Origin: Pythium myriotylum
Taxonomy: Eukaryota > Oomycota > Peronosporomycetes > Pythiales > Pythiaceae
Direction of reading: 5' to 3'
Length of the DNA: 64,000 nucleotides
Assembly (NCBI GenBank): GCA_023091665.1
Contig: JALJCQ010000017.1
Location: 806,001 to 870,000 of the forward strand
Made by a program: the position numbers and the translations under genes. Below the pieces are notes generated by a model, which had not been told where the DNA came from, searched no databases, and saw only the letters and a list, made by a program, of their open reading frames with translations. Within the stretch, counting starts at the first letter, position 1. Each line of letters begins with the position of its first letter. Shown piece after piece: positions 15,156 to 58,944 of the stretch.

Positions 15156-15653
15156 TTATGGGCACGTGCAGTAGTCCCACTGATAGCCGCGCACTCCGCC
15201 CTTCCTGTAGATGAACATCGCACACCATGGCTTCTTGTCCTTGTCTCCAAGTGTCGTCGAGTATCCGTCAATCTTAGCGATGAGCTTCTTGCCGCTCTTG
15301 TCGTAGTAGGACCAGTTCTTGAGGCACTTGGTTCGATCACCTTGTTGAATGTACTGCCAGTGGATGTTCTTTTTTCCTCCCGAGCGGTATGCGTTGAGCA
15401 TTGTCCACGCGCCGACTTTGTCATGCTCGGCTGTACATCCAATGAATCTGGAGCTGAAGTAAATGTTCTCGTAGTACCATTCGCCCGAAACGCTGTTCTT
15501 CGGCAACGCGCACGAGGTGAGATCAGTCGAAACTAGGTTCCGTTCGGACACAGGTGGCGTGTTGGCGGTGGTATTAACTGTGAGAATCGCGTGAGAGTAT
15601 GTGAGCGACAAGCCGAGCAAGTACGCGAGGAGGGTCAAGCTGAAGATTGCCAT
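15156..15653 (-). CDS. Secreted six-cysteine double-repeat protein, member 1
   Basis: 165 residues; I do not recognise the family. The signal peptide is residues 1-22 (cleavage after SHA). Six cysteines lie at 48, 73, 110, 144, 162 and 164, predicting three disulfides. The motif W-x5-YR-x-GG-x4-[HQ]-W-x-Y occurs at 83-101 and again at 143-161, exactly 60 residues apart, each preceded by a WYY or W-x-YY segment. The protein therefore seems built of two related halves. There is no RxLR or transmembrane helix after the signal, and one NTT sequon. An oomycete initiator-like element lies 21 bases upstream of the ATG. The closest neighbour and closest relative is member 2. A secreted structural or host-interaction role is inference. 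Confidence 0.85.
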   Translation of the reverse strand: MAIFSLTLLAYLLGLSLTYSHAILTVNTTANTPPVSERNLVSTDLTSCALPKNSVSGEWYYENIYFSSRFIGCTAEHDKVGAWTMLNAYRSGGKKNIHWQYIQQGDRTKCLKNWSYYDKSGKKLIAKIDGYSTTLGDKDKKPWCAMFIYRKGGVRGYQWDYCTCP

Positions 15654-15673
15654 CGCGCCGTGGAAATCGTCGA

Positions 15674-15688
15674 CAAATGCAGAATGAG
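15674..15688 (-). promoter_or_regulatory. Oomycete initiator-like core promoter, member 1
   Basis: On the minus strand CTCATTCTGCATTTG, matching the oomycete initiator pattern TCATTYYNCAWTT, 21 bases before the ATG. Confidence 0.7.
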
Positions 15689-15949
15689 AGGATCAAGAAG
15701 AATTCTCCAGCACCTTTCCCGTCATCATTGCAGGTAACACATGCCATAGAGCGAGTCTTTTGATGATGCTGACGGAGATGATCGCTGGTTCTGAGTGAGG
15801 ATTCGGTCGGCCACACAAGCAGAGGGGACGTGAGTGGTACCGACCGCGTCAAACGGCACGTTTACAGATCAACAAAAGAAGACCACCCGAGATAGTTTGG
15901 ATTTTTGAGAGTACGTATAGTCGAGCATGGAAGAATCCCGATCTTCATC

Positions 15950-16468
15950 TTATTGGTTGTTCATGCCTCGTGGACATAGGCAGTACTCCCACTGGTAGCC
16001 ACGCTCACCGCCCTTCCGATAGACGGATGTGGCGCACCACGGCTTCTTCTTCTTGTCACCGAGCACCGTCGAGTACCCGTCGACCTGAGCGATGAGCTTC
16101 TTGCCACTCTTATCGTAGTAGGACCAGTTCTTGAGACACTTGGTAAGGTCGCCGTCTTCAATGTACTGCCAGTGGGTGTTCTTTTTCCCTCCTGACCGGT
16201 AGGCGTTGAGCATTGTCCACGCACCAAATTTTTCATGGTCAGTCGTGCAGCTAGCGTACTTGGAACTGCTACCGATACTCTGGTAGTACCATTCACCCGA
16301 GACGCTGCCCACAGGCAGCACGCACAAGTTGATAAAAGTCAGGCTCCTGTCGGAACTTTCGGAACTGGATTCGTTGATGGAGTCATTGTTGGAGGGAGCT
16401 GCATGAGAGAGTATGAACGACGACGAAAGAGACAAGAAGACGAGAAGGGTAAAGGCGAGGGTCGCCAT
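15950..16468 (-). CDS. Secreted six-cysteine double-repeat protein, member 2
   Basis: 172 residues with signal peptide 1-24 (ends LSHAA), a serine/asparagine-rich spacer (SSSESSDRS) and the two-repeat domain. First repeat WTMLNAYRSGGKKNTHWQY, second repeat WCATSVYRKGGERGYQWEY. Cysteines are in NLCVLP, ASCTT, KCLKNW, PWCA and YCLC. It is nearly identical to member 1 in the central 100 residues (LKNWSYYDKSGKKLIA, GYST-LGDK), so the pair is a recent tandem duplication; divergence is concentrated in the N-terminal spacer. Same strand as members 1-9. A matching initiator element lies at 16489-16503. Confidence 0.85.
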   Translation of the reverse strand: MATLAFTLLVFLSLSSSFILSHAAPSNNDSINESSSESSDRSLTFINLCVLPVGSVSGEWYYQSIGSSSKYASCTTDHEKFGAWTMLNAYRSGGKKNTHWQYIEDGDLTKCLKNWSYYDKSGKKLIAQVDGYSTVLGDKKKKPWCATSVYRKGGERGYQWEYCLCPRGMNNQ

Positions 16469-16488
16469 CGCGTCGTGGATATCGCTGA

Positions 16489-16503
16489 CAATTCCACAAT
16501 GAG
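16489..16503 (-). promoter_or_regulatory. Oomycete initiator-like core promoter, member 2
   Basis: Minus strand CTCATTGTGGAATTG, 21 bases before the ATG and in the same position as in member 1. Confidence 0.6.
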
Positions 16504-16980
16504 AAGCTCCGCGAGTCGACCGCCTCCTCCGTCAGACCCGACTAAAGGATGCATATTAGTGTGATCCTGTAGACCTCACTTTCAAAGCCAAAGCCGTCGT
16601 TGATATCCACGAACTAGAGATTGCAGGACTCCTGATGATGCAGATAGGAGGAATCGAAGAAGCCGGTGCTAATGTCGAAAGTATGGAAGATTCATATCCG
16701 AACTGATTGATGGTCTCGTCGTTCGTTTTCAGGAAAGAGAGGAAACGATGAAGAGAATCAGGTTGAAGTTGTCGTTGTGACGCTGAGATCTACGGCAGGA
16801 TAAGATGACCCCCAACCTCTACGGCATTGCCATTGCAGGATAGCGTCTGCCGACAGAAGGTCGGGTTCCCTGTACTGTCGATTGAAAGAAAAACGGAAGG
16901 TTTGGGCCATTCTCGAGCAGACTCGGGGCCAATATGCTGCCAAGTGATACGATTACGACTTCACAGAGGCTCTACCCGAT
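16504..16980. other. Intergenic, no gene seen
   Basis: Upstream of member 2 and downstream of member 3. Short ORFs only, none with a domain or a family motif. Confidence 0.5.
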
Positions 16981-17400
16981 CTAGTTGGAGCACTTGCAAT
17001 AATCCCACTGGAGTTGGCGTACCCCTCCTTTGCGGTACACGGGCAACGCACACCAGAGCTTGTTCTTCTTGTCGCCGAGTCTCGTCGCGTAGCCGTCGAT
17101 ATGACCGAGCATTGACGTGCCCTTCTTATTGAAGTACCACCAGTCCTTAAGACAGAGAGAGTAGTCGTCGCCTTCGATGTACTTCCAGTGCGTGCCTTCA
17201 GTGCCACCTGAGCGGTACACGTTGAGCATAGCCCACGGGCCGTGGTCGTCGTGGTCCGACGTGCAGTTGACGATCTTGCCGTTCTTGACGTCGTTGTAGT
17301 ACCACTCGGGAACGCCCACATTCGGCGGTCGACAGTTGCGAGTGCTTGTTGCAGCTGAAGCGATCCAAACAGGAAAGAGGACGAGAGTGAAGAGCTTCAT
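16981..17400 (-). CDS. Secreted six-cysteine double-repeat protein, member 3
   Basis: 139 residues from the internal ATG at 17400. The longer open frame from 17550 would bury the signal peptide (MKLFTLVLFPVWIASAA), so the internal start is chosen; an initiator-like GCCATTCTCAAACTCTC lies at 17412-17428. This is the shortest intact member, with almost no N-terminal spacer: the first Cys follows the signal directly. First repeat WAMLNVYRSGGTEGTHWKY, second repeat WCALPVYRKGGVRQLQWDY, six cysteines in the family positions (NCRPP, VNCTS, LCLKDW, WCAL, YCKC). Confidence 0.82.
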   Translation of the reverse strand: MKLFTLVLFPVWIASAATSTRNCRPPNVGVPEWYYNDVKNGKIVNCTSDHDDHGPWAMLNVYRSGGTEGTHWKYIEGDDYSLCLKDWWYFNKKGTSMLGHIDGYATRLGDKKNKLWCALPVYRKGGVRQLQWDYCKCSN

Positions 17401-17411
17401 GGCGCTCGTTG

Positions 17412-17428
17412 GAGAGTTTGAGAATGGC
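17412..17428 (-). promoter_or_regulatory. Oomycete initiator-like core promoter, member 3
   Basis: Minus strand CCATTCTCAAACTCTC just upstream of the ATG at 17400; it supports the shorter start. Confidence 0.55.
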
Positions 17429-18160
17429 GGACACGGATCTCGTGCAGGATGAAACGCTGGCCTAGGACATGATGCAGAACCTGCTCGACGAGCGATGGCC
17501 ATGAACAGGGATCGTTGAGTTTCTAGCGGGCAGGAAAGGCTCCTGACCACGGCTGGGTGTTGGTGTCAGCTATGCTTCAGTGTTTCTGCCCACGCCCTTG
17601 CTACGCAACCAGAGGAATGGAGGCAATTACAATGAGGATTCGTGATGAATTCAATTTCCATGAGCTACTAATGCTACTGTGGTGCTGGGTAGTGTCCCGG
17701 ACGCGGTCCGTAGATTCGGTTCATTTGTATTGTCGTCTCTGGGTAACGACGCTGAAGTTGACACGCCATCAGCACGACATACACACGAGGATCTAATGTC
17801 GTAGGTTGCGGCTAGGGAGCCAGTTGTGGTACTTTCGCATCGTCGATGCGGAATACGAACTTCTCATCGTCACCACTGAAGATCCGTAAGATGTGATCTC
17901 ACAAGACCCGATGATTAGGCGGTCATCATCTTCTGTGGGTGAGGAAGATCTTGGTGTCGTGACAAGTGGCTGCCGATGACGCGCAGTTGGGAAGGGTGGA
18001 TGGGCTCTACGATCATCATCTCGTGCGAGTTGGACCTTCGTGTGCCAAGGTGCGTTCATCGAACTCAGATTCGATAGCCGACTTCAACATTAACTTCGTA
18101 AGACAGAAATTGACCAGATTCATTGGATCCCCTTACAATACTACTGCTGGATTTCCACTC
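17429..18160. other. Intergenic, no gene seen
   Basis: About 700 bases between members 3 and 4. ORFs of 70-90 codons occur on both strands but none shows a signal peptide with family cysteines or any known domain. Confidence 0.5.
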
Positions 18161-18622
18161 CTACTCTGCAGCACTGCGATCGAAGAACGGATCGCCCGAG
18201 CAGTTACAGTAGCCCCACTGGAAGCCTCGCTTGCCGCCGCTTCGATAGACAGGGAGGCCACACCAAGGCCTCTTGTTGGCGTCTGCCAATGTCGTCGTGT
18301 AGCCCACAACCTTGCCAAACGCGTTCGTGCCAGTCTTGTCGTGGTACGTCCAGCCCTTCAGGCAACCGGTAACATCATCTCCCAGGACGTAACGCCAGTG
18401 CACACCCTGCTGGCCGCCTGAGCGGTAGGAGTTGAGCATCACCCACGGGCTGATAGTGTCGTGCTTGGCCGTACAACCACGGATTTGCTCCGGTTCAGCG
18501 CCATATTTCCACAACACAGAGACGCTGTTGCTGGGAGGAACACATTTGCTCGTATCGACCGTCGAAGCCGCGTCACTGATGGACGACAAGACGAAGAGAA
18601 CAACGATCAAGTTAGCCACCAT
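18161..18622 (-). CDS. Secreted six-cysteine double-repeat protein, member 4
   Basis: 153 residues: signal peptide 1-19 (VANLIVVLFVLSSISDAAS), then KCVPPSNSVSVLWKY. First repeat WVMLNSYRSGGQQGVHWRY, second repeat WCGLPVYRSGGKRGFQWGY. Both repeats read YRSGG here, the clearest sign of internal duplication. Six cysteines (KCVPP, RGCTA, GCLKGW, WCGL, YCNC). WYY before the first repeat is WKY. The C-terminal tail GDPFFDRSAAE is unique. Confidence 0.85.
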   Translation of the reverse strand: MVANLIVVLFVLSSISDAASTVDTSKCVPPSNSVSVLWKYGAEPEQIRGCTAKHDTISPWVMLNSYRSGGQQGVHWRYVLGDDVTGCLKGWTYHDKTGTNAFGKVVGYTTTLADANKRPWCGLPVYRSGGKRGFQWGYCNCSGDPFFDRSAAE

Positions 18623-18931: not shown

Positions 18932-19453
18932 CTAGTTATTCTGCTTCGGTGGGCAACGATCACAGTACGTCCACTGGTTGCCCATGACTCCGCCTTTGCG
19001 ATACGTGCGCATGGCACACCACGGCTTGGTGTCGCGAACCATCGTCGTGTAGCCCGTGACCTTTGCAATGACTTTGGTGCCTGACTTGTCGTAGTAGATC
19101 CACCCGTCGTTCCCACCGTAGCCGCCGAGACAGTCGCCGTAGCGACCGTCCGTCACGTACTTCCAATGAACGCCTTGCTTGCCGCCGGAACGATACGAGT
19201 TAAGCATGATCCAGTAGCCATTGTCGTCGTGCTTATCTGTGCATCCGATGAAGCGCTCCCGTGCAAAGTCATTGTACTGCCATTCGCCCTTGACTGCGTT
19301 TGATGGTGGAACACACGACGTCTTATCCTCCCAAACGCGATCTTCCAACGTGGCGTTCGCAGGGATCATACTGATCGACGAGACGTTGGCAAGATCAGCA
19401 GCAGAAGCTACTACCACAGAGACACCCAGGGGAACGAAGCAGAAACGAACCAT
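18932..19453 (-). CDS. Secreted six-cysteine double-repeat protein, member 5
   Basis: 173 residues. Signal peptide 1-18 (VRFCFVPLGVSVVVASA), a roughly 30-residue spacer containing an NVS and an NAT sequon, then SCVPPSNAVKGEWQY. First repeat WIMLNSYRSGGKQGVHWKY, second WCAMRTYRKGGVMGNQWTY. A glycine-rich insert (LGGYGGNDG) sits between the repeats after the third Cys. The C-terminal pair is C-x2-C (YCDRC) rather than C-x-C, followed by PPKQNN. An initiator-like GAGCATTTCCAAAATA lies at 19471-19486 on the minus strand. Confidence 0.85.
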   Translation of the reverse strand: MVRFCFVPLGVSVVVASAADLANVSSISMIPANATLEDRVWEDKTSCVPPSNAVKGEWQYNDFARERFIGCTDKHDDNGYWIMLNSYRSGGKQGVHWKYVTDGRYGDCLGGYGGNDGWIYYDKSGTKVIAKVTGYTTMVRDTKPWCAMRTYRKGGVMGNQWTYCDRCPPKQNN

Positions 19454-19470
19454 TGGAAGGAAGACAGAGA

Positions 19471-20911: not shown

Positions 20912-21448
20912 TCACGAGTTGTCTTCCGTCGGCACGGGATCGTCTTCTTGCCCTCCCGTCTTCTTCTTGCAGTTGCACCACTCAAACTGGTAGCCTTCGT
21001 AGCCCTGTCGGTAGTGCGGCAGCGCGCACCAGCGGCTTTGTTCGTTCAGGAACGTCGTGCGACCCCAGACCTTACCGATCACTTTCTTGCCTCCCTTGTC
21101 GTAGTAGGTCCAGCCGTTCATGCAGGCCGGGTCGTTCTTGTCGTCCGTGTACTTCCAGTGGATGTTCTCGACGCCGCCAGCTCGATAGGCCCGGAGCATG
21201 GACCAGACTTTGCCCCAGGTGGTCCAATCGTAGGTGCAGCTGTAGGGTCCGTAGAGGCGGTCGCCGAGCCACCAGGTCTCCACCGCATTCTCTGGTGGCT
21301 CGCAGGTGTAGTTGAGCTCTGGGACGTCGATGGAGAGTCGGCGACGGGCCATGGGCGGAGTCCACGGTTTAGCAAGATCCGAGGCAGCGACCAAGGCGAC
21401 GAGGCTGAAGAGAACGGCAAGAGCGGATCGAGTGCTGGTGTTCTTCAT
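20912..21448 (-). CDS. Secreted six-cysteine double-repeat protein, member 6 (divergent)
   Basis: 178 residues, signal peptide about 1-22 (ALAVLFSLVALVAAS). The first repeat is WSMLRAYRAGGVENIHWKY; the second is modified to WCALPHYRQGYEGYQFEW, with GG changed to GY and the Trp to Phe. Cysteines fit the family (TCEPP, SCTYDW, ACMNGW, WCAL, WCNC), then a charged tail KKKTGGQEDDPVPTEDNS. WYY is replaced by WWLGD. It is isolated by flanking non-family DNA on both sides and may be an older branch. Confidence 0.82.
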   Translation of the reverse strand: MKNTSTRSALAVLFSLVALVAASDLAKPWTPPMARRRLSIDVPELNYTCEPPENAVETWWLGDRLYGPYSCTYDWTTWGKVWSMLRAYRAGGVENIHWKYTDDKNDPACMNGWTYYDKGGKKVIGKVWGRTTFLNEQSRWCALPHYRQGYEGYQFEWCNCKKKTGGQEDDPVPTEDNS

Positions 21449-21853: not shown

Positions 21854-22417
21854 CTACTCCTGCTTGATCTTCGTCTTGGGCTCGGGTGTCGTGGTCTGCG
21901 TAGTCGACCCCGGTCCAGGGTGTGTGATGACCATAGTGCAGTTAACACAGTAGTCCCACAGATACCCACGCTTCCCTCTGCCCTGGTAGAGATTGATCGG
22001 GCACCACGATCGGTTCTTGGGATCCCCTAGCGTCGTCGAATAGTCGTGGATCTGGGCGATCAGCGTCGAGCCGTCTTTCGCGTAGTAGCGCCAGTTCTTC
22101 AGACATTCACGGACGTCCATATCGTCGCGAAGAAACTTCCAGTGCAAGCCTTCCAAGCCGCCCGAGCGATACGACTTTAGTCGGATCCATGGAATCGTGT
22201 CCTCGCGCGTTGTGCAGTTGATGATCCACGATGAAGCAACAAGCCCCACTCGCCAGACGCCGACAAAGCCGTTGTTAGGCAGGACACAAGTGCTGAGATC
22301 CCAGGCCTTGCTGTATTTGGTTGTGGTGAGATTGCGGATGATGATCGGTGGGAGGGAAGTAGCTCCGATTACCCCTGAGAAACCGAAGGCGATAGACTTG
22401 AGAAGTAGAAGTAGCAT
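21854..22417 (-). CDS. Secreted six-cysteine double-repeat protein, member 7
   Basis: 187 residues. Signal peptide 1-20 (LLLLLKSIAFGFSGVIGA), spacer with NLT sequon, then WDLSTCVLPNNGFVGVW. First repeat WIRLKSYRSGGLEGLHWKF; second repeat WCPINLYQGRGKRGYLWDY, degenerate in the YRxGG core. The C-terminus is CVNC followed by a proline/threonine tail (TQTTTPEPKTKIKQE) with an NCT sequon. The WDLSTCVLP entry and the CxNCT...TPEP end are shared with member 8, so 7 and 8 form a subfamily. Confidence 0.82.
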   Translation of the reverse strand: MLLLLLKSIAFGFSGVIGATSLPPIIIRNLTTTKYSKAWDLSTCVLPNNGFVGVWRVGLVASSWIINCTTREDTIPWIRLKSYRSGGLEGLHWKFLRDDMDVRECLKNWRYYAKDGSTLIAQIHDYSTTLGDPKNRSWCPINLYQGRGKRGYLWDYCVNCTMVITHPGPGSTTQTTTPEPKTKIKQE

Positions 22418-23014: not shown

Positions 23015-23575
23015 CTACTCTGGCCTCTCTGTCCAGGGTTGGTGAGTGAGTGGCTCCGGTGTCGAGGTCGACTTGTGGATCACGAAAGTGCAGTTGATGC
23101 AGAAATCCCACTCGATCCCACGAAAGCCACCGCTGTGGTAGCGAGTGGTTGGGCACCACGGATATTTCTCGACGACTCCACTCTCGTCGAAAGGTAGATG
23201 GGTGGCGGAGCCTTCAACCTTCGTGAGGAAAGTCTTGCGGTCTTTACCATAGTAGAGCCAGTCTTTGAGGCATCCCTTGGAGTCGTAGTCGTGAGAGAGG
23301 TATTGCCAATTCTCGTCCCTGTATCCAAAAGAGAACGCGTTCAGACGAATCCATGGGAAGACTTCCGCGCGAAGGGTGCAGCCTTCGATTTCGCCTCTGT
23401 CCAGGGAGTATTTCCAGCTTTGGGTGATCGCGTTGGTAGGGAGCACACAGGTTGAGAGATCCCACGACGAGCCTGAACGAGAGGACTCAAGAGTACGGAC
23501 AAGAACAGGTGGGAACTTGGTCTCGCCGCGAACGAGAACGAAGAAGAAAGTTACGCATGCTGTGAGTGTGATCAT
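23015..23575 (-). CDS. Secreted six-cysteine double-repeat protein, member 8
   Basis: 186 residues from the internal ATG at 23575, which opens the signal peptide MITLTACVTFFFVLVRGE; the frame extends 14 codons upstream without benefit. The subfamily entry WDLSTCVLPTNAIT is shared with member 7. The first repeat is eroded (WIRLNAFSFGYRDENWQY: no YRxGG, one residue shorter); the second is WCPTTRYHSGGFRGIEWDF. The spacing between repeats is longer (KVEGSATHLPFDESGVVEKYP). It ends CINC and TSTPEP. Cysteines are retained, so the fold is probably kept even though the repeat core has drifted. Confidence 0.78.
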   Translation of the reverse strand: MITLTACVTFFFVLVRGETKFPPVLVRTLESSRSGSSWDLSTCVLPTNAITQSWKYSLDRGEIEGCTLRAEVFPWIRLNAFSFGYRDENWQYLSHDYDSKGCLKDWLYYGKDRKTFLTKVEGSATHLPFDESGVVEKYPWCPTTRYHSGGFRGIEWDFCINCTFVIHKSTSTPEPLTHQPWTERPE

Positions 23576-24300: not shown

Positions 24301-24759
24301 TCACTTCGGGGAGCAGTTTTGGCAGTAATCCCACTGGAATCCCCGCTTGCCACCCTTTCGATACACTGATAGTGCGCACCAGAGCTCGTCGTCGCCCGTC
24401 TTCGTCGCGAAGCCGTCCACCGCTGCGAGAACTTTGGATCCCTTCTTATCATAGTACGTCCAGTTGCGAAGGCAACCGTCGAAATTACCGTTCCCGATGT
24501 ACTTCCAATGGATGTTCTTTTTGCCTCCCGAGCGGTAGGCGTTGAGCATCACCCAGCCTCCGTGGCCATCATGCTCTAGGGTGCACCCGTAAATCTTGTT
24601 CTCAGGGTAGTTGTAAGCCCAGTAGCGTGGGCTGTTGGTAGGCTGAGTGCAGATGGTATCGTCGTAGCTTGGTGCTAGCGAACGAACACCAGTGTCTGAT
24701 GCTGCGACGCAAAGAGCTATAATAGAGGTGAGCAGCTGCAAGAAGCTGGATGTGATCAT
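24301..24759 (-). CDS. Secreted six-cysteine double-repeat protein, member 9
   Basis: 152 residues from the ATG at 24759, which begins the signal peptide (MITSSFLQLLTSIIALCVAAS); the frame is open 36 codons further but those are not signal-like. First repeat WVMLNAYRSGGKKNIHWKY, second WCALSVYRKGGKRGFQWDY, ending CQNC. The WYY block reads YWAYNYPENKIYGC. It is the parent copy (or sister) of the disrupted relic at 29262-30138, which shares signal, core and about 130 bases of upstream DNA. An initiator-like ACTCATTCTATTTCCTC (minus strand) lies near 24775-24791. Confidence 0.84.
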   Translation of the reverse strand: MITSSFLQLLTSIIALCVAASDTGVRSLAPSYDDTICTQPTNSPRYWAYNYPENKIYGCTLEHDGHGGWVMLNAYRSGGKKNIHWKYIGNGNFDGCLRNWTYYDKKGSKVLAAVDGFATKTGDDELWCALSVYRKGGKRGFQWDYCQNCSPK

Positions 24760-24791
24760 CACGTCGGGATCCGAGAGGAAATAGAATGAGT

Positions 24792-25924
24792 CGTTTGGTC
24801 TTGCACTTCTCTGGGTGGCATTCGCTTCTGTTTCCTCTGGAGGTTCAGTGACTCTAAACACAACCATCAGCGGTCAGATTCGTCCCCAGCATCCGAGGGA
24901 AGTTGACCTTCTGATCAGCTTTGTTTATGTCATGATCGCGCATCGTGTTCAGATCCCAGTCCTATGATGAGTTCGACAGGTTCCAGAAAAAATGTCGGAG
25001 TGCTGGGACATCGTCGTGTTAAGAGCCAGACCTTCCTTTCCCTAGGGAAACAAGAGATGCGGAATTTCCCGAGAGCATCCACCCTCAAACAAAAATGAAA
25101 TTGAACCTGTCGGTGATAACTCCATGCTGACATTCGTCTGCACCGACTGCGTATCGCCGACTCGAAAAAGACAGTCCAGTATTTTAGAGTTGGTCTACGA
25201 CAGCGCCGTAGGGAAGCACTGTCACCGTTCCGTACCATTGAAGGCAACGCTATTCTGGGTGGCTAGGAACCCACTCTACGAGCTCATGACGACTTCATGC
25301 AGGCTGAAGACCTCACCTAGAAAGTGACCAAATCATATGGGCCTCGATCCATCAAATTGGCCTTCTTTTGGGGATGGGACAAAAGCAAGACTAACACCAA
25401 GAATAATCCGATCAGTCAGATACCAAACCACACAATCAGGGCTAGGAACAGAAACCTATCCGATTTCTCTGATCCTTTCAGTTCTCCTCGACTCAATTCT
25501 TCTAATTCACGCGCCCACTACTTACCGACGTTGCCGTCACTGCTATTCGCTGATTTCTACAGTCCAATTGCTGCTTGACAAGCACCGATGGCAGCTGCAA
25601 GGACAGTCGTCAGCTGGGTCATGTGACCGGAGGAGAGCAATCACAGAAGACCGTGGTTTTCGTCCTCATGGATTGGAGCCTTCGATGGGTGTGAACTCTA
25701 TTGAGTTCAGAAAGGTGAATCCTTTCAGCTATCGTCAGTGGTATGTGTTGGACGCCCATCCCCTGTATTGACCACTACCGGTATCGTATGCAAGCCACGG
25801 AGATGAGGCACACTGGCCGCCTTAAGAGATGTGGAGCGTCCATTCAGATTGCCCCTAGTGCGCTAGAGCAACGACAAGTTTGCGGCCAGATAGGTTTGTG
25901 AGTCGCAAATACCAGCGGTAGAGA
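24792..25924. other. Intergenic, mostly without features
   Basis: The first 130 bases recur upstream of the relic at 30138. The rest holds short ORFs without domains. One copy of a dispersed motif (ACTCTATTGAGTTCAG, near 25690) lies here. Confidence 0.45.
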
Positions 25925-29261: not shown

Positions 29262-29380
29262 CACATCAAAACTCGTCGTCGCCCGTCATCGTCGCAAATC
29301 CGTCTATTAATACCGCCGCGAGAACCTGTGACTTTTTCTTATCATGGTACGTGCAATTGCGAAGGCAACCGTCAAAGTTA
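29262..29380 (-). pseudogene. 3' fragment of a secreted-family relic (copy of member 9)
   Basis: Minus strand translation in broken frame resembles the region after the third Cys of member 9 (FDGCLRN, Y-DKK, VLAAV, GFAT-TGDDE). It is separated from its 5' half (29878-30138) by about 500 bases of inserted DNA. Frame is lost. Confidence 0.75.
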
Positions 29381-29404
29381 GCTGGTTGTCGTAGGGTCTA
29401 CGAT

Positions 29405-29719
29405 CTAGGTGGCAAAGCTCCAGATGACTACAAGGTTCGGATCCGCAGCCGTTGTGGTGACAAGGAGGGCTCCAGCGCCCCCTGGGCCGGGATTACCACG
29501 CGTACCTCCATTGAAGAAGAGCACTCGCGCTGGCGCTGCGAGTGCGACAATTGGATCGGCCTGCTCCTCGGGCGTGTAGAGAAGGTTCCTGAAGCAAGCG
29601 ATGAAGTTCTTGGCGAAGTCAGGCGTGTCTTGGACGTTGACAGCAGACCCTGTGCACGACCGCAGCCTGCCCGCGTGACAAAGCACGCAACTCGTTGGCC
29701 ATTCTGTTTCTACAAGCAT
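29405..29719 (-). pseudogene. LINE RNase H fragment inserted in the family relic
   Basis: Contains VLFFNGGTRGNPGPGGAGALLV, the first strand-loop of a non-LTR retrotransposon RNase H (normally DGG-RGNPG). The domain breaks off after FAT, followed by a stop. The continuation of a similar RNase H is seen at 40200-40600 on the other strand. The fragment, with flanking DNA 29381-29877, interrupts the family relic. Confidence 0.6.
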
Positions 29720-29877: not shown

Positions 29878-30138
29878 TCACTTCCAGTGGATGTTCTTTT
29901 TACCTCCTGAGCGGTACGCGTTGAGCATCACCCACCATCCGTGACCATCATGCTCTAAGGTGCATCCGTAAATCTTGTTCTCAGGGTTGCTGTAGGCCCA
30001 GTAGCGTGGGCCGTCGGCAGGCCGAGTGCAAATGGTATCGTCGTAGCCTGGTGCTAGCGAACGGACGCCTGTGTTCGATGCTACGACGTAAACAACTACA
30101 ATAGAGGTGAGCAGCAGGAGGAATCTGGATGTAGGCAT
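29878..30138 (-). pseudogene. 5' fragment of a secreted-family relic (copy of member 9)
   Basis: From the ATG at 30138: signal peptide (PTSRFLLLLTSIVVVYVVAS), TGVRSLAP, then DDTICTRPADGPRYWAY and the first repeat WVMLNAYRSGGKKNIHWK, where it stops exactly at the insertion point. Signal and upstream 130 bases match member 9. The second repeat is missing here and survives in pieces at 29262-29380. Confidence 0.85.
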
Positions 30139-30174
30139 TGCGTTGGGATTCAGGAAGTAGAATGAGTCTTGCAC

Positions 30175-31101
30175 TTCTCTGGGTGATATTCCCTTCTGTT
30201 TCTGAACGCTCCGTGAGACTCATGCAACCACCAATGGTCAGGTTCGCTCCTAGCATCCGAGGGAAGCTAATCTTCCCGATCAGCCTTTTTTCGTTGATCG
30301 TGTATCGCGTTCAGACGCCAGTGTCCTACAGATCCCAGAGCGGTTGTAAAAAAGAGAAAAGAAACACTGTCGACTATTGTTCCTACCATCGCCCCTGGAA
30401 ATGGGCAGTAGTGTGCCCCTGTAGTGAAGACAGGAATAACACTATCATCCCTGTCTTGACGACAGGGGCGCCTATCAGCTCTGGGATGAGCAGTATGTTA
30501 CGGTAACGTACTGCCCATCCCAGAGCTGATGCTTGAGGGCAGGAGCATCGCTTCTTTCCCGCCAGGGACACAAGGTCGGGAGCTTTCGCCCGCCGCAAAT
30601 CCATCGAACAACCAAGTTTCAATTGAAATTGCAATACTATCTCCATGCAGCAAATCGGGTAGTCTTCCAATGACGCGTATAAATTAATCATGCGATGGAC
30701 ACGAGATCCACTTCGCAAGTCCATCATCCGACAACTCGGAAAGATCATTCTCACTTCTCGGAGTTGCTACCAAGCGACCTGCTTCCATGGCTCGTGTCTT
30801 CCGCCGTGAGAACAGTTGAGATTTAAGATGTCAAAATCAGCCAAGCTATGTTGAGGATTCACAAATTGAACATGTAAAAAATGATATGATCCATTAATCA
30901 CCACGTCATCCTAGGCGCTTCGAACCCACACTCTCAATTTAGACTCCATCACGACTTCAAGTGCTTCTGTATCCGTTCGCAATGTCGTTGAAGATGGTCT
31001 TTGGGAGGTGAGACAAAACCAATAATATGCCAACTGCTTCTTCAAGCATCACTGACAGATGAATGTGATGAGTACAAAGAGGTTTAGTCTTATTGCTACG
31101 A
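30175..31101. other. Intergenic with foldback DNA
   Basis: Upstream DNA shared with member 9 at its start, then nested inverted repeats (30416-30530). The rest holds nothing supportable. Confidence 0.5.
30416..30530. repeat. Nested inverted repeats (foldback region)
   Basis: Arm 30416-30434 pairs with 30450-30468 (19 bases, two mismatches). A second, longer palindrome covers 30474-30530: 15 bp starting ATCAGCTCTGGGATG, one mismatch, 6 bp, one mismatch, 5 bp. Absent from the paralogous upstream region of member 9, so it may be an inserted foldback element. Confidence 0.7.
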
Positions 31102-50511: not shown

Positions 50512-51018
50512 TTAGACACGTCCGTCGGGACCTCCGCTTCCATGGCAAACCTCAGAACATTTTTCCCATTGCTTGCCCTTGACGCCGCCTTGTCGGTACA
50601 CTCTCAGCGCACACCAGCTCCTGTTGTCGTTGAGAGTAGTCGTTCGTGGGACCGTCGCGAGTAGGGTGTTTCCGTCGGACGAGTAGTACTTCCAGTTCTT
50701 CAAGCAGTCCGAGTCATTGTCGTCGCTCGTGTACTTCCAGTGGACGCCGATCTGGCCGCCCGAGCGGTATGCGTTGAGCATCGCCCACTCGTAGGTCGAG
50801 TCGACGGACGAGCACGTGTAGGGGCCGCTCGAGTAGGTCTGATAGTACCAACCGATGACCCCGTTACTCGGGCTGTGCATACTGCAGGTTTCCCTGTTGA
50901 TGCTGGCGTGGGCTGTTTCATTCGAAGCATTCACCGCCACATTTGCGTCAACAACTGGGTCCGTAGTCTGCGCCGCCGCAAGCGCGAGGCTCGAGCCGAT
51001 CACCAACAGAGTTCTCAT
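50512..51018 (-). CDS. Secreted six-cysteine double-repeat protein, member 10
   Basis: 168 residues from the ATG at 51018 (signal peptide MRTLLVIGSSLALAAAQ); 46 more codons are open upstream but are not signal-like. First member of the second block, whose linker after the third Cys reads NW-YYSSDG-TL and RTTT instead of the YYDKSG and GYSTT of block 1. First repeat WAMLNAYRSGGQIGVHWKY, second WCALRVYRQGGVKGKQWEK. The last cysteines are spaced wider (KCSEVC), with a glycine-rich tail. Initiator-like GGCATTTCCGAATTGG lies near 51042. Confidence 0.84.
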   Translation of the reverse strand: MRTLLVIGSSLALAAAQTTDPVVDANVAVNASNETAHASINRETCSMHSPSNGVIGWYYQTYSSGPYTCSSVDSTYEWAMLNAYRSGGQIGVHWKYTSDDNDSDCLKNWKYYSSDGNTLLATVPRTTTLNDNRSWCALRVYRQGGVKGKQWEKCSEVCHGSGGPDGRV

Positions 51019-51870: not shown

Positions 51871-52350
51871 TTAAGGCTTTGGGCCTTGAGGTGGCTTCTC
51901 CTTGCAGGAGCAGTACGCCCACTGCTTGCCCTCCACGCCTCCTTGACGGTACACAGGTAACGCGCACCAGCGCCTGGACCCACCCATTGTGGTCGTGCGT
52001 CCGATCACACCTTGCGATGTCTGGCCATCCGACGTGTAGTACGTCCAGTTCGTCAAGCACGCGCCGTCGTTCTCGTCGTTTGTGTACTTCCAATGGACGC
52101 CCTCTTGACCTCCGGCTCGATAGGCTCGAAGCATTGACCACTCTCGTGTGCTGTCGAACTTGGAACAAGAACCGGCAGGTTTTGACCACGTCTGATAGTA
52201 CCAGCCGCCAACCGCGTTGCTTGGGGGTACGCATGTGCGATGGCTTGGGGTGCTGTCGATACTTGCGTTGGCGACCTCTGTGATGTTAGCTTGCTGCGCG
52301 TCCGCTGGTTTTACGAGCGCGAGGGATACAAGAGCAAGGGCGAGCTTCAT
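51871..52350 (-). CDS. Secreted six-cysteine double-repeat protein, member 11
   Basis: 159 residues from the ATG at 52350 (MKLALALVSLALVKPADAQQ). An initiator-like ACTCATTGCGCAATCTT lies about 15-30 bases upstream, favouring this start over the longer frame from 52452. CVPPSNAVGGWYYQTWS leads to the first repeat WSMLRAYRAGGQEGVHWKY; the second is WCALPVYRQGGVEGKQWAY. Linker YYTSDGQTSQGVIGRTTT is block-2 type. Ends YCSCKEKPPQGPKP. Confidence 0.85.
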   Translation of the reverse strand: MKLALALVSLALVKPADAQQANITEVANASIDSTPSHRTCVPPSNAVGGWYYQTWSKPAGSCSKFDSTREWSMLRAYRAGGQEGVHWKYTNDENDGACLTNWTYYTSDGQTSQGVIGRTTTMGGSRRWCALPVYRQGGVEGKQWAYCSCKEKPPQGPKP

Positions 52351-53148
52351 TTTTGCTGAACGGAGAAGATTGCGCAATGAGTGACCTTTGAAACCTATGG
52401 GGTCGTCTATCTGAGCCATCGCTGAAGAGCAGAGAGTACGTGGACTCGACATTCGATGACCCCATTACGCTTGTATTACGCACCACGGGAAATCGATGCG
52501 TTGGTGACTGAGGGAAAGGCAACATAGAATCGGGCGGGCGTTCCACGTCAGTCTACTACTACTCGTAATCTCTTCATGTTGTTCAGTTGAGGATGTTCCG
52601 AACGAAAGATTGCCAATTCGACGGCCGTAGAGATGCCAAGGAACTATTTATTGTACCCTCGCCAACGTTGCTCCTACACAAAGTATCGAATGATGCTGCC
52701 AGAATTAAGCACAACGGTCCGGAATAAAACCAGATACCAGAGCAGATGAGTCATTGAAACTGCAGGATATCGTTCTACTCTGATATTCGAAGATGACTTG
52801 CGAGTTGAATCATATCGATCCTTGAACTCAGAGATCAACATGCTTCAACGAGTACAGTATTCAATACTCGAATACTGTACTACTTTTCACGCGGGAAGTA
52901 CAATGAATCAGACGACAAATGACCATTCATGCCGACTAATCAAGACTATTCCGAGCACGCCGATTATCGTTGAAAATTTCAAGGAGCTGTGGGTAGCTCC
53001 GAGATAACTACAGCATTGTATGCAAGAGCCCGCGATACAGATAGTGATAGGTAGTTTCTTTGCGGATGACGACGAGTGAATGTCGCTACGCTATGGATGC
53101 GAATCCATTCATTTGTATGATATTGAGCAATCACAGTTACTTGCCGGC
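52351..53148. other. Intergenic, hairpin, no gene
   Basis: Contains a 12-bp hairpin (52851-52862 with 52870-52881, AGTACAGTATTC arms). No supportable ORF. Confidence 0.5.
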
Positions 53149-53634
53149 CTAGATACCGATGCCACCAGGCTTGCACTTGCAGTACTCCCACTGCTTTCCT
53201 TGGACACCGCCCGCACGATAAATAGGCAATGCACACCAAGGTCGACCGCTCCCGATCGTCGTTGTGCGTCCGACCGTCGCTTGCAAAGTCTGGCCGTCGT
53301 TCGAGTAGTATTTCCAGTTTGTCAGACATCCACTGTCGTTTGGGTCATCCGTGTACTTCCAGTGAAGGCCTTGTTCGCCTCCCCCACGGTATGCATTAAG
53401 CATCGCCCAGTACTTGCCGGATTGAACTTGCGAACAAGCCGAGTGAGGGCCATCCGACCAGGATTGATACCACCACGTGCGAATATACCCGCTCGGCGGA
53501 GCGCACTCGATGGCCTGGATGCTACCGGGTGCCGCTGTGTCATTAGCCGGAATCGTATCGACTTGCTGAGCGAACGCGTGCGGAGTAGCGACGACTAACC
53601 CGGCGCTGAATAGAAGAATCGAAGCTCTCATCAC
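53149..53634 (-). CDS. Secreted six-cysteine double-repeat protein, member 12
   Basis: 161 residues: signal peptide 1-22 (ILLFSAGLVVATPHAFAQ), NDT sequon, CAPPSGYIRTWWYQSWSDGPHSAC, first repeat WAMLNAYRGGGEQGLHWKY, second WCALPIYRAGGVQGKQWEY, ending YCKCKPGGIGI. Block-2 linker YYSNDGQTLQATVGRTTT. A perfect match to the oomycete initiator (GCTCATTTCCCAATTTT) at 53669-53685 sets the transcription start about 48 bases before the ATG. Confidence 0.88.
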   Translation of the reverse strand: MMRASILLFSAGLVVATPHAFAQQVDTIPANDTAAPGSIQAIECAPPSGYIRTWWYQSWSDGPHSACSQVQSGKYWAMLNAYRGGGEQGLHWKYTDDPNDSGCLTNWKYYSNDGQTLQATVGRTTTIGSGRPWCALPIYRAGGVQGKQWEYCKCKPGGIGI

Positions 53635-53668
53635 ACTTGCGGGTTGGAACGGGTGGGATTCTTGGTTG

Positions 53669-54327: not shown

Positions 54328-54798
54328 CTAGAGCGTGTTGCTGCACTCGCAGTAGGCCCATTGCTTGCCCTGGACGCCGGGGGTGCGATAAACGGGAAGT
54401 GCACACCAACGACGGCTGTCTCCCATAGTCGTTGTACGGCCGATGACACCCAGCAAATTCTGGCCGTCCGACGAGTAGTAGTTCCAGTTGGTCAGGCAAG
54501 CGCCGTCATTTACATCGTTCGTGTACTTCCAGTGGAGGCCCTCCTGGCCGCCAGAACGATACGCGTTGAGCATCATCCACTCCCGCGAGTCGCCAAAGAA
54601 TTCGCAACCGTTCGGGCCGTTGGAGCGACTGTTGTAGTACCAGTCGTTTACGGCTCCTTTTGGCTGAATGCAGAAACGGCCCTGGATACTGGCGTGTCCA
54701 GAAGGCGTGGTAGTGTTCGCTCCTGGGGCTTGGGCGGTAGCGGATGGAGTCGCGACGGCAACAGCAGCGCTGACAACAATCGCGGTTTGGAACTTCAT
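54328..54798 (-). CDS. Secreted six-cysteine double-repeat protein, member 13
   Basis: 156 residues: signal peptide 1-22 (KFQTAIVVSAAVAVATPSATAQ), short spacer with an NTT sequon, FCIQPKGAVNDWYYNSRSNGPNGC, first repeat WMMLNAYRSGGQEGLHWKY, second WCALPVYRTPGVQGKQWAY (GG changed to PG), ending YCECSNTL. The block-2 linker YYSSDGQNLLGVIGRTTT is present. Initiator GCTCATTCTCCAACTTT at 54831-54848. Confidence 0.87.
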   Translation of the reverse strand: MKFQTAIVVSAAVAVATPSATAQAPGANTTTPSGHASIQGRFCIQPKGAVNDWYYNSRSNGPNGCEFFGDSREWMMLNAYRSGGQEGLHWKYTNDVNDGACLTNWNYYSSDGQNLLGVIGRTTTMGDSRRWCALPVYRTPGVQGKQWAYCECSNTL

Positions 54799-54830
54799 GC
54801 TTGGTTAGGTTGAGGCTTGTAAAGGAGGGA

Positions 54831-54848
54831 GAAAGTTGGAGAATGAGC
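54831..54848 (-). promoter_or_regulatory. Oomycete initiator core promoter, member 13
   Basis: Minus strand GCTCATTCTCCAACTTTC, near-complete consensus match, 33 bases before the ATG. Confidence 0.8.
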
Positions 54849-56150
54849 TGTGGAGCAGACCGATAGCGTGGATAAGGTTGTTCAAAATGTTGGTTGTCTC
54901 TTGCTCCTTGGAGGTCGCGCTGGAGGGCCACCTCCTCGGAGCCCTGAGGCTCTGGGCCACTTATTCTTTGTTCCCGACCTGGAAAAATCACACAAGCATA
55001 TTCGACACGTGTGATGAAGTGTATCACGGTGACGAGGTAGAGGAAACACCATGATATACTGAGAGAAGATACTCAAATCCGGACAGATTTTGAATTGCAG
55101 TTGTATTGTCTTAGCCTGCAGGGAAACGTGGGTCGACAAAAATACGCGAATGGTTATTCAGTCGCCTTTTCTCAGTATATCATGGTAGGTGTTTGCATGT
55201 CCGTCAGTTTCCCAGATCCCAAGCGTTCCACATCCTTTTGGAATGAGAACTCTCGTGATGCTAGTCCGTACAGTGTTACTAGTAGATCCCCGCTATACCA
55301 CCTTATCCAAGGATCTGATAAATTAGGATGCACGGTGGATCGTCGAAAGGACCAGTCGGTCAGTGTTTTGTGTCAATGCAATCTGGTGCCTCGCGTTGCA
55401 AAGCCTAGGGTTGCCTGACTTTCATCGACACCTATTATCGCCTATCCAGGAGTCGTGGTCGTTTCTCCCGATGTCAGGTGCTTTTCGTCAACATTAGCAG
55501 AGTATTGATCGGCAATGGAGCAAAGCGTATCCCTCCACGTATGATCTAAAGTGCACATTCTTTTTAAACCCAATGCAATGAATCATATCTGTCATTTGAG
55601 CGATTCGTTGTGCTGGAGTGGGGGAAAATGACTTGTCGCCCAACAGCAGCGAAGTACTCCGCGAGATGCTCAATCACATGGGGGACCCCACGATATGGCC
55701 GATCGAGAATGTTAAGCTCTTAATCATGACTCCAAAAAAGATCGTCCAATAATATTGGACAACAACACGAATGGAAATGTTTTATCTGATGATGCGCGGC
55801 ACTGAAGAGGCATTGTCCGTACTCAGGTGTCAACCAGGTTGAGTCAGTTGAAACTAGAGGCCAATCAGGCTTGGGGAAGTACGCGGTATCACATAGCTGT
55901 GATACCTGTATGTACTGGCACCAATCTGGTCAAGCTGAACTGTTGGAACAGGCATCAAAACTGGATACCACTCATCATATTTTGGATGTGATTCTGCACC
56001 CAAAAAGTATCCAAACGCCTGTCGCGCATAGAAAGGCCATATATGAGTCAGATAGGATATTCTTTGCGATGAGAATCTTCATTCCTAGTAGTATAAGCCA
56101 GCCCAGTCCTGGAGGGATTCAAAGCACCCGTTGAAGAAGTTGCCAACGTT
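54849..56150. other. Intergenic with a MITE-like inverted repeat
   Basis: About 1.3 kb without a supported gene. Contains the 17-bp terminal inverted repeat unit 55048-55186. ORFs here are short and featureless. Confidence 0.5.
55048..55186. repeat. 139-bp unit with 17-bp perfect terminal inverted repeats (MITE-like)
   Basis: Left arm 55048-55064 (ACCATGATATACTGAGA), right arm 55170-55186. The 105-base interior has no coding content. No clear target duplication. Confidence 0.55.
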
Positions 56151-56632
56151 TTATCGTCGATACCCAAAATTAGAGCGTTCCACCCCCTCCGGCCCTGCGG
56201 ATGGGGGCAACTTGCAGCGGCAGCGGTCCCACTGCTTGCCTTGAACCCCACCTGAACGGTACACAGGTAGGGTATACCAGCGGTGATAGTCTCCCATGGT
56301 TGTTTTGCGTCCGATTGCGCCTTGAGAAGTCTGGCCGTCCCATCTATAATAGATCCAGTTGGTCATATACGCTCCGTCATTTTCGTCTCTGGTATCCTTC
56401 CAATGGACATCTTGTTGGCCATCTTGTTGGCCACCGGAACGGTAAGTCTTGAGCATTGACCATTCACTCGAGTCTTGGACTTTGTCGCAGCCGTGTGGGC
56501 CGTCAGACCACGACTGATACCACTACTTGTCAACCGCACCACTTTGCAGATCTCAGGACCAGCGCGCGGGTAGACTTGTTGTAGTTGCGCGAGTATTCGT
56601 CGAGTTAGAATTACGACCTTGAGCAAATGCAT
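56151..56632 (-). pseudogene. Secreted-family relic (block 2 type)
   Basis: The core reads from WSMLKTYRSGG to the end (VYRSGGVQGKQWDRCRC), but it carries several lesions. A stop sits in the WYY block (DK-stop-WYQSWSDGP, near 56522). A duplicated GQQD insert breaks the first repeat. The third Cys is lost (YMTNW) and the fourth is replaced by Tyr (WYTLP). The upstream part to 56632 no longer encodes a signal peptide in frame. Confidence 0.85.
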
Positions 56633-57239
56633 TAGCGATGCAAGACGCGATGGTTACAATGTCGATTTCCACCACTAAGAAGATCTTGGTCAGCCGAAGC
56701 AAAATGTAGACTGATAAACGTTTGGTCTTCTATTCATGTGTATGACAGATCATACCTATCTGTTCTGCAAGTCGCAGTGTGTGGCGTAGCGTGTGCATGT
56801 TTCCCGCCGGTGCTGGATTTATTGTGTGCGTATGATCATCAGGCAACACCATACAACGCAATCTCATGGCGTGTCGTGTTCAAGAACCAGAGTAGCGTTG
56901 GGATGAGGCACAAACAATGATGACACGAACGACAAAAACCCCGTATCCTTCTCACTGTTCCAGAAAGAATGCGTATCACAAGAGTAGTACCCATTCATTG
57001 AATTTGGGAGAGATATGTGCTTCTCCTCTACATACGAAGTTCAAGGAGCTATCTTCTTCAGTAGACTTGGTGTGAGTATCGTTGACGCCCAACCCATCTC
57101 GAATTGGCTGGATCGTATGCGTGAAATATCACTCGACAATCCAGGCCCACGAGTTGGCGTGGGGATATGCTCAAGACCGAAGAAATTTAGGGCTGATCCG
57201 CTGTTCTTCCCATTCTTGAATTCTCCTCCAAGCATCAAC
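56633..57239. other. Intergenic, no gene seen
   Basis: Divergent spacer between the relic and the only plus-strand family member. An initiator-like CCCATTCTTGAATTCTC lies near 57207-57223. Confidence 0.5.
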
Positions 57240-57749
57240 ATGCCCCAGTCGATGAGGTTATCGGCTATCGTCGCTACCAGTTGGTGGTTATCAACGGCGA
57301 TCGCACAGGAGACAATCCTTCCAGTCAACGCAACTACTCCGCCCCGCATTGGGATTGAGGCTCTTCCTGCTCGATGGGTTTGTAATCCACCGTCAAATGC
57401 GGTCGACCTTTGGTGGTACCAGACGAAATCCGAAGGCCCATACCACTGCACCAAGGCGCACGATAGCAGCGATTGGTCTATGCTCAAGTCGTATCGTTCG
57501 GGTGGACAGGTTGACGTCCACTGGAAGTACACAGAAGACGAAAATGATTCAGCTTGTATGACCAACTGGCACTACTACACGTCGGATGGACAAACTTCCC
57601 AGGGGGTGATTGGTCGCACGACAACGCTTGGAGACACACGCCGTTGGTGTGCTCTGCCGGTTTACCGCTCAGGTGGTATTTACGCCAAGCAATGGCAGCG
57701 GTGCAGCTGTAGATGGCTCTCTCCTCCGCGCCCAGGAGGCGGAACATAA
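57240..57749 (+). CDS. Secreted six-cysteine double-repeat protein, member 14 (inverted)
   Basis: 169 residues from ATG 57240; 75 open codons upstream are not used because the signal peptide (QSMRLSAIVATSWWLSTAIAQ) starts here and an initiator-like element lies just upstream. It is the only family gene on the plus strand. CNPPSNAVDLWWYQTKSEGPYHC leads to the first repeat WSMLKSYRSGGQVDVHWKY; second WCALPVYRSGGIYAKQWQR. Ends RCSCRWLSPPRPGGGT. Block-2 linker YYTSDGQTSQGVIGRTTT is identical to member 11. An inversion within the array is likely. Confidence 0.85.
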   Translation: MPQSMRLSAIVATSWWLSTAIAQETILPVNATTPPRIGIEALPARWVCNPPSNAVDLWWYQTKSEGPYHCTKAHDSSDWSMLKSYRSGGQVDVHWKYTEDENDSACMTNWHYYTSDGQTSQGVIGRTTTLGDTRRWCALPVYRSGGIYAKQWQRCSCRWLSPPRPGGGT

Positions 57750-57975
57750 GACGTTCGCTCTTTGCCCAAGGAATACCAGTGAAGATAGGCTGGTGTACAC
57801 AAATATTCGACACGACAACGGAGATAAAGAGACGTCAGCGTGAAAGACTGGTCTGGAGTGATGTATTGTTGCTATATTCGGCGATATCTTCGATAGGCGG
57901 TTGGCATCAGTCACCGATATGAAAGCCACCAGCTGCTATTACCGTGTTGTTTCATCAATCAATCAATATCACGAG

Positions 57976-58020
57976 ACGCGCAGTACGCCCACTGTTTTCC
58001 TTCCACGCCGATTGACCGGC
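57976..58020 (-). pseudogene. Secreted-family 3' end relic
   Basis: Fifteen codons on the minus strand read CRSIGVEGKQWAYCA, clearly the last repeat of a block-2 member. Nothing upstream is preserved. Confidence 0.65.
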
Positions 58021-58452
58021 AGGGTCGGTCGTTAGGGTCCTTCGCGTATTCTTGATGCCACGTGTCAGAATTTTGTGCTCCTCTGAGATGCCAGGGATCC
58101 TTTAATTAAGCTCGCGATGCGAACCAACGTACATCTGGGTTGACACATACATCCATAGCTTGTCTTGTCCGTAGATGCAGAGCATCACTCTTGCGCTTGG
58201 CATTGAAAGTGATAAAGAGTTCCCCAAATCGCCTTTTCTTTTGAATCAAATCACCTTTTCTTTTGAATCGAATTTTTCTTTGTCTCACCGATTTGAGAAA
58301 TCCGAACTTTGGGTATTGTAGTTGCTGCAGGGTGCCGGTATTCGCCAGCAAATACAAAATGATGAGAGCAGGTAAGGAAGTGGGTATTAGTGCTGTTTGT
58401 ACTTTGGGCTTGTGGACCAGTCAGAGCTGTGAACAGCACCAACCTCGGTAAA
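58021..58452. other. Intergenic, no gene seen
   Basis: Contains tandem CTTTTCTTTTGAATC-type repeats near 58230-58270. No ORF support. Confidence 0.5.
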
Positions 58453-58944
58453 TCAGGGGTCCCCACCTAGATTCGACGAATATTTGCAGTAGCCCCACTG
58501 TTTGCCTTGAACTCCACCTTGACGGTACACTGGGAGCGCACACCATCGAGCGCCGCCTTCCGTCGTCGTGCGTTCAACGATGCTCCGTAGGGTTTGACCA
58601 TCCGCAGTGTAGTATCCCCATTTAGTCAGGCATACTGGGTCGTTCACGTCATTGGTGTACTTCCAGTGCACATTTTCCAGACCACCGGTACGGTAAGCGC
58701 TCAGCATCGACCATTACTTCGTGTCATCGACTCTGTTGCACGGACCGTAAGGGCCGTTTGCCCACGACTGGTAGTACCATCGGTTGAGCTGAGGGTGGGG
58801 GCCATACACTCCCTCGCAAAAGGTTGCAGCTTGGATGGCGCCATGAGTAGATTGTGTCCCGTTCACGGCGCCTTCACTGGTTTGCTGACCAGAAGAACAA
58901 GTTGCATAGAACGCGCTGGCGATCGTAAATGTCGAGAGCTTCAT
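58453..58944 (-). pseudogene. Secreted-family member with one in-frame stop
   Basis: The signal peptide (KLSTFTIASAFYATCSSGQ) and the first half to RVDDTK end at TAA (58714-58716). The same frame continues WSMLSAYRTGGLENVHWKY, the block-2 linker YYTADGQTL and the second repeat WCALPVYRQGGVQGKQWGY. A second change replaces the last Cys (YCKY instead of YCKC). Two independent lesions argue for a genuine young pseudogene rather than a sequence error. Confidence 0.85.

Follow-up and report, generated by a model that had tools for sequence, protein, structure and literature searches.

What are the small secreted proteins whose genes are repeated along a 64,000-nucleotide stretch of the oomycete Pythium myriotylum, and what might they do outside the cell? 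This stretch (the window; contig JALJCQ010000017.1, positions 806,001 to 870,000, or C17:806001-870000) carries, between its positions 15,156 and 58,944, a cluster of genes for a six-cysteine protein family that a first-pass annotation, made from the sequence alone, described as unrecognised. We suggest, at a probability of about one half, that the family is a repertoire of extracellular binders: secreted, non-enzymatic proteins with a duplicated all-beta domain, three disulfide bridges and a repeat unit resembling the fibronectin type II (FN2) module.

A duplicated domain with three predicted bridges

The open reading frame (ORF) listing of the window gave 14 intact six-cysteine ORFs at the positions first described: nine in a minus-strand block at 15156-24867 and five at 50512-57749, of which one is on the plus strand and the rest are on the minus strand. 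They align across the whole domain, with 17 columns invariant and 8 nearly so. The six conserved cysteines (C1 to C6) that had been reported are in register in 13 of the 14 ORFs, but the last cysteine is shifted by two residues in the ORF at 50512-51018. Profile scores of the window members (170-212 bits) are self-matches; the independent test of the family came from further ORFs of at least 100 bits elsewhere in the genome.

We compared half 1 of the domain (C1 to C3) with half 2 (C3 to C6) and obtained an hhalign probability of 95.2, with a pairwise E-value of 2.5e-8 over 30 columns. By this comparison the domain is an internal duplication, a new finding. The repeat unit is ~50 residues long and reads roughly C-x-x-x-W-x-Y-Y ... 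T-x-x-G-D ... W-C-x-L-P-x-Y-R-x-G-G ... W-x-Y-C.

To follow the cysteines, we used an alignment of 55 rows, 43 of them intact members from the whole genome and 12 of them relatives; it leaves out two damaged members and six relatives that are short. C1 and C6 occur together in 47 rows and are jointly missing from 7; one row has C1 without C6, and no row has C6 without C1. For C2 and C5, 52 rows have both and 3 have neither, while C3 and C4 are found in all 55; in a relic at 56.15 kb, C3 and C4 are both replaced by tyrosine. This co-occurrence suggests the pairing C1-C6, C2-C5 and C3-C4, although cysteine changes on the tree (three for C1, four for C6, one each for C2 and C5) are too few to test it. 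An additional pair of cysteines in half 1 is complete in 4 of the 55 rows, and its WC part occurs alone in one. We also noted a member outside the window, L016:3384-3950 (C17_748384), that has three additional cysteines (in WCYEDC.. and NWTCY), a possible further rewiring of bridges.

The structure prediction gave a confident all-beta model (AlphaFold model m4fcc3ab60ba2; predicted local distance difference test score 95.2, predicted template modelling score 0.84), whereas an isolated repeat was not confidently folded. Foldseek returned no PDB match for the model, and VIA-align gave no match either.

The repeat unit points weakly but repeatedly to FN2

No Pfam model (sets of 10, 14 and 43 members, which overlap) and no NCBIfam model (14 members) matched above its cut-off, and whole-domain profiles searched against PDB sequences gave no match past the cut-off and no FN2 chain. 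A profile of the 14 window proteins found a single match among 5.8 billion proteins. The 43-member profile used in the protein, PDB and Pfam searches, and in one viral-contig search, began just past C1 and did not include it. To this extent the family deserves to be called unrecognised, but its repeat unit bears a weak and recurrent likeness to FN2 modules.

Three different searches raised FN2. First, a joint profile of both halves (55 rows) was compared with ten FN2 modules and reached a score of 23.45 (P 70.8), which none of 300 column shuffles attained (mean 9.0, maximum 16.95). By default 28 columns align; with the permissive setting -mact 0.01 the aligned region takes in all four FN2 cysteine columns, and identity is 12%. 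The halves taken singly were weak (P 0.5 and 13.0). Second, a 30-repeat profile searched against 177,635 PDB sequences returned MMP-9 first (E 0.0085) via its three FN2 modules, with no single stretch significant, no other FN2 chain listed and a sole other match at E 2.4. Third, fn2 drew matches from more members than any other Pfam family did (4 of 43; the best, at E 0.0056, is below the cut-off), and it also matched 2 of the 30 repeats (best E 0.037) and two of the metagenome relatives described below, namely P0016 (E 0.007, two stretches, 16.8 bits; one of four scanned) and P0003 (E 0.086, 13.3 bits; one of ten scanned). The gathering cut-off of PF00040 is 22.2 bits, and no member or relative passes it. 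In the window, fn2 matched one of the 14 members at E 0.088, level with chance families, and an fn2 search of the whole genome gave nothing over the cut-off (best E 0.57, none in the array). A separate small cluster, four open frames of 580-599 amino acids at G000:C27:856983-868121, shared equal weak fn2 scores (E 1.35) in the genome.

The likeness to FN2 (PF00040, as in MMP-2/MMP-9, the mannose receptor and Endo180) lies in a common layout, C..aromatic..CT..G..D..WC..Y..W-x-Y/F-C, and in several aromatic ligand-site positions that have conserved counterparts by eye. In the FN2 fold, two beta sheets of two strands each lie perpendicular to one another, and there is an aromatic depression. Our model is all beta and gave no Foldseek match; by eye, its strands seem to lie at FN2-like places. 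For the gelatin-site residues Y193, Y219, W225 and F227 described for Endo180 (PMC4635314), the candidate counterparts are Y81/Y82, Y111 and W121 in half 2 and Y54, W64 and Y66 in half 1, each conserved in at least 50 of 55 rows; the place of Y193 in half 1 and that of F227 in half 2 are conserved in less than 80%. The family differs from FN2 in that two units are fused in one domain, with longer loops, scores below the Pfam cut-off and no structural match. Moreover, FN2 modules are described as having four cysteines paired 1-3 and 2-4 (PMC4635314), whereas no oomycete unit has all four: half 1 keeps position 2 only (position 3 as well in one of the 43 intact members), half 2 keeps positions 1, 3 and 4, and the proposed C2-C5 bridge would join the units. 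At best, the domain works like FN2; we do not claim FN2 membership.

A new disulfide fold unrelated to FN2, consisting of a beta unit duplicated in tandem, would account for the same data if the C..WC and aromatic spacing had arisen by convergence, and the protein would still be a secreted binder. Arguing for such a fold, and weighing against an FN2-like unit, are the matchless Foldseek and VIA-align searches, the weakness of every Pfam fn2 and PDB sequence match, and the lone repeat that lacks a confident fold. The agreement of three different searches argues the other way, as do the end-to-end joint-profile alignment with four FN2 cysteine columns in register, at the permissive setting, and the FN2-like strand places seen by eye. 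We regard convergence as quite possible, though short of probable.

Other known modules were compared with our FN2-like unit. PDC-109-type seminal-plasma proteins are small and secreted and carry two FN2 units in tandem, each with its own two disulfides; their -WKYC end resembles that of the relative P0018. Kringles are likewise disulfide-rich extracellular binders, but they hold three disulfides inside one unit of ~80 residues, unlike the oomycete domain, and we found no sequence match to them here. FN2 and kringle are treated as two families of one superfamily (PMC8373733). In the literature listings searched, no oomycete FN2 or kringle family and no FN2 outside animals appeared (the latter also not in passages of PMC8001218), and 'fibronectin type II' as whole words is absent from PMC5771568.

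The window is a slice of a larger tandem array

Is the cluster limited to 15156-58944, as first described? We searched the genome (58.7 Mb, 55 contigs) with three members, which gave at least 50, at least 51 and at least 47 matches, and analysed twenty regions. With two window relics set aside, 45 ORFs score at least 100 bits, of which two are damaged and 43 intact; 31 of these ORFs, including both damaged ones, lie beyond the window. Forty-one of the 45 fall on C17 between 622 and 881 kb, a span of ~260 kb that is away from the ends of this 3.48-Mb contig, and the remaining four are at 1.10 Mb and 3.26 Mb of C17 and on C13 and C31. The window members are a slice of this larger tandem array.

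Secretion-type N-termini are a general feature of the family: a simple hydropathy rule found an N-terminal hydrophobic stretch in 44 of the 45 members, in line with the signal peptide first ascribed to all window genes. The single exception is the gene at 57015, where the rule chose a methionine four residues ahead of a likelier one. In four window ORFs (16981, 24301, 51871 and 57015) the probable signal peptide starts at an internal methionine, 34-79 amino acids into the ORF.

We built a quick IQ-TREE phylogeny of the 55 rows, with branch support from the Shimodaira-Hasegawa approximate likelihood ratio test (SH-aLRT); of its 52 inner branches, 9 are starred and 28 open. One clade holds eight of the nine members of the first block (SH-aLRT 86) and another all five members of the second (83). 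The earlier proposal that two sub-groups (A and B) map to the two blocks therefore holds roughly, but neither clade reaches 95 and both kinds are also found at 870-881 kb, beyond the window.

Old copies kept under purifying selection

We estimated nonsynonymous (dN) and synonymous (dS) divergence by the Nei-Gojobori method for all 903 pairs of the 43 intact domains, including up to ~20 residues of the spacer end. The pair with the lowest dN, the genes at 15156 and 15950, has a dN of 0.18 and a dS of 0.99, and dS is saturated in 352 of the 903 pairs. Among the 540 pairs with dS below 3 none has dN above dS (median ratio 0.37), and the 12 of the 22 closest pairs with a finite dS have dN/dS values of 0.09-0.32. 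No positive selection over the domain was seen; the values point to old copies on which purifying selection acts. The tandem cluster with relics was borne out, but these values speak against the recent, fast birth-and-death that had been supposed.

This bears on whether the proteins are apoplastic effectors, which would target a plant or animal host, for instance by attaching to its wall or matrix, or by protecting the pathogen as a shield. Such a role fits a secretion-type, cysteine-rich, clustered multigene family of an oomycete, and PcF/SCR proteins, elicitins and Kazal inhibitors are small, secreted, cysteine-rich, multigene oomycete families as well. None of these gave a Pfam match above chance (14 and 43 members), a comparison that covers families with a Pfam model. 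No matching family surfaced in literature listings on oomycete cysteine-rich families and Phytopythium secretomes.

Promoters bear on the same question. The initiator (INR; YCAYTYY) is a core promoter element reported to be widespread in eukaryotes (PMC3599244). We found it within 100 nucleotides of the start, in the forward orientation, in 23 of the 45 members (7 of the 14 in the window), versus 3 of 45 in reverse (shuffles: mean 10.65, maximum 20). This oriented element supports the view that these are oomycete-type genes. The internal transcribed spacer (ITS) of the genome likewise has an oomycete look, resembling Peronosporales and possibly Phytopythium. A 16-nucleotide consensus of INR plus flanking promoter region (FPR) matched 20 of 45 at 11 or more of 15 positions (shuffle mean 4.3, maximum 12). 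For P. infestans, PMC3599244 connects the combined INR+FPR motif with genes that are infection-related and stage-regulated, but the exact motif given there occurs in only 1 of our 45 members.

Against effectors stand the lack of any sign of positive selection, the absence of RxLR between signal peptide and domain in all 45 spacers, and the age of the paralogues, some of which are common to metagenome relatives. For the domain, such age and constraint speak against a recent arms race. The secretion-type N-termini imply a role outside the cell, but host-directed action, which the first-pass annotation had offered as inference, stays conjectural; we consider effectors a tenable reading that falls short of an even chance.

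The spacers carry two other short patterns. An R-x-L lies 8-16 residues ahead of C1 in 11 of the 45 members, including those at 15156, 15950, 20912, 21854, 23015 and 24301 (shuffles: mean 3.3, maximum 9; the sequences are related and not independent), and is possibly a protease site. By eye, several sub-group B spacers (50-58 kb and 870-881 kb) show a recurrent (H/S)-(A/G)-(S/N)-I shortly ahead of C1.

Metagenome relatives include a putative surface-anchored form

Searched against the same 5.8 billion proteins, the 43-member profile gave 14 matches at E up to 0.01, and a search from one of them, P0012, returned itself and three more (P0016, P0017 and P0018). Three of eight metagenome relatives in the tree adjoin a particular paralogue: P0002 and P0005 lie by C17:1104k (SH-aLRT 98) and P0003 by C17:747k (82). 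These placements suggest that part of the repertoire is common to another source. The remaining five form their own clade within sub-group B.

P0012 and P0016-P0018 are related to the oomycete members by profile or sequence search and form one side of a branch with an SH-aLRT of 96. They differ from the oomycete members in having, by eye, a hydrophobic segment at the N-terminus and then a low-complexity stalk rich in Thr/Pro or Thr/Gly, in carrying C..WC in both halves (four of four) and in lacking C1 and C6. Two Pfam matches, New_glue for P0018 (residues 5-77, E 3.6e-5, 23.9 bits where the cut-off is 31) and Pilin_N for P0012 (E 0.019), were set aside, as both fall on the hydrophobic segment and stalk, outside the domain. 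A giant-virus source was rejected as well, since viral-contig scans and a phage tblastn search with P0018 gave no relative. Scans of genome contigs for relatives returned nothing but one match in L036, a bacterial metagenome-assembled genome, which we took as chance because no such protein is among its ORFs.

These four relatives could represent the surface-bound form of a family directed at the organism itself, as cyst-coat, cell-wall or mating and recognition proteins. In favour are their hydrophobic segment and stalk ahead of the same domain, and purifying selection together with many old paralogues fits conserved self-functions. The oomycete members, however, show no such anchor by eye, and we think this assignment unlikely.

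A model for the secreted binder

We favour the reading of the family as FN2-like binders. Extracellular binding proteins with an aromatic ligand surface would fit what was observed: the bridged beta domain is small and secreted, its aromatics are conserved, it matches no enzyme, and its many paralogues are under purifying selection. After removal of the signal peptide, a short variable spacer would lead into one compact all-beta domain of ~110 residues, made of two fused copies of the repeat unit that the three bridges would pin together. The conserved aromatics held in place (W, Y, W and Y in half 1; W, Y, Y, Y and W in half 2) could form a rigid surface, and the unit may work like an FN2 (kringle-like) module, in whose aromatic depression an extended peptide or glycan sits. 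In that case the 43 intact paralogues would be a repertoire that the hypha or cyst displays or releases. The analysis shows the secretion-type N-termini, the internal duplication, the co-occurrence of cysteines, the purifying selection and the confident beta model; from these we infer the disulfide pairing, the FN2-like ligand site, the binding function, the ligand, the target and the life stage.

Secreted enzymes or enzyme inhibitors are very improbable in our estimate. The conserved H-W-K-Y and Y-R-x-G-G stretches are readable as polar site residues, but the His is present in only 47 and the Lys in only 44 of the 55 rows, the bridged domain is small, and none of the enzyme or inhibitor models in Pfam and NCBIfam matched above its cut-off.

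Genes, relics and neighbouring sequence in the window

The first block, on the minus strand, begins with member 1 (15156..15653, 165 amino acids) and member 2 (15950..16468, 172 amino acids), both of sub-group A and 62% identical. It continues with member 3 (16981..17502, probable signal peptide start at internal Met 35), member 4 (18161..18622, 153 amino acids), member 5 (18932..19453, 173 amino acids, with an additional Gly-rich loop following C3), member 6 (20912..21448, 178 amino acids), which falls outside the main sub-group A clade, member 7 (21854..22417, 187 amino acids, with a tail rich in Thr/Pro), member 8 (23015..23575, 186 amino acids) and member 9 (24301..24867, probable start at Met 37). 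The second block comprises, on the minus strand, member 10 (50512..51018, 168 amino acids) and member 11 (51871..52452, probable start at Met 35), both of sub-group B, member 12 (53149..53631, 160 amino acids), in which the 16-nucleotide INR+FPR consensus is matched at 15 of 15 positions 54 nucleotides upstream, and member 13 (54328..54798, 156 amino acids), the first row of the AlphaFold model. Member 14 (57015..57749, probable start at Met 80) lies on the plus strand.

Of the four relics proposed earlier, which all lie on the minus strand, three are supported. A copy of member 9 is split into an N-terminal piece (29881..30219, 80% DNA identity over 461 bp) and a C-terminal piece (29269..29397, 77% over 124 bp) about 480 bp apart, and the gap contains an ORF (29405..29719, minus strand) that looks RNase-H-like by eye, a candidate retrotransposon fragment. 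The relic at 56151..56456, which carries the two tyrosines described above, has upstream stops in the matching frame, and that at 58456..58956 is divided by one stop codon. The fourth (57962..58105) is marginal, being a C-terminal end only with a best stretch of 10.6 bits (E 0.09).

Elsewhere in the window, gene copies at 43.7, 44.8, 47.2 and 49.3 kb (43665-49991; 65-73% DNA identity) form a second small tandem family, short-chain-dehydrogenase-like by eye. A 482-bp direct repeat of 99.8% identity (33539-34020 and 38613-39094) perhaps marks the ends of a recent element. A 336-bp repeat of 99.7% identity (6501-6836 and 14021-14356) has ~7 kb between its copies, and the ORF at 14431 is helicase-like (Helitron) by eye.

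Implications for the family and for FN2/kringle modules

Kringle and FN2 modules are familiar from proteins of the animal extracellular matrix and from animal proteases, and their origin is discussed within animals. As a tentative scenario, one we would not yet call probable, an FN2/kringle-like module exists outside animals; in one branch, a symmetric two-module surface protein with C..WC in each half would have been rewired, by loss and gain of cysteines, to the nested bridges C1-C6, C2-C5 and C3-C4, and an oomycete lineage would have expanded this single-fold binder to ~43 secreted proteins, mostly in one chromosome segment. If this is true, the anchored relatives and variant members would be a visible path of cysteine rewiring, and the origin of FN2 and kringle would gain a candidate relative outside animals. 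An undescribed oomycete family would gain a model of its fold, a proposal for its disulfides and a ligand site that can be tested. Because no Pfam or NCBIfam model recognises it, this would be a large secreted oomycete repertoire of a kind that catalogues based on domains would miss.

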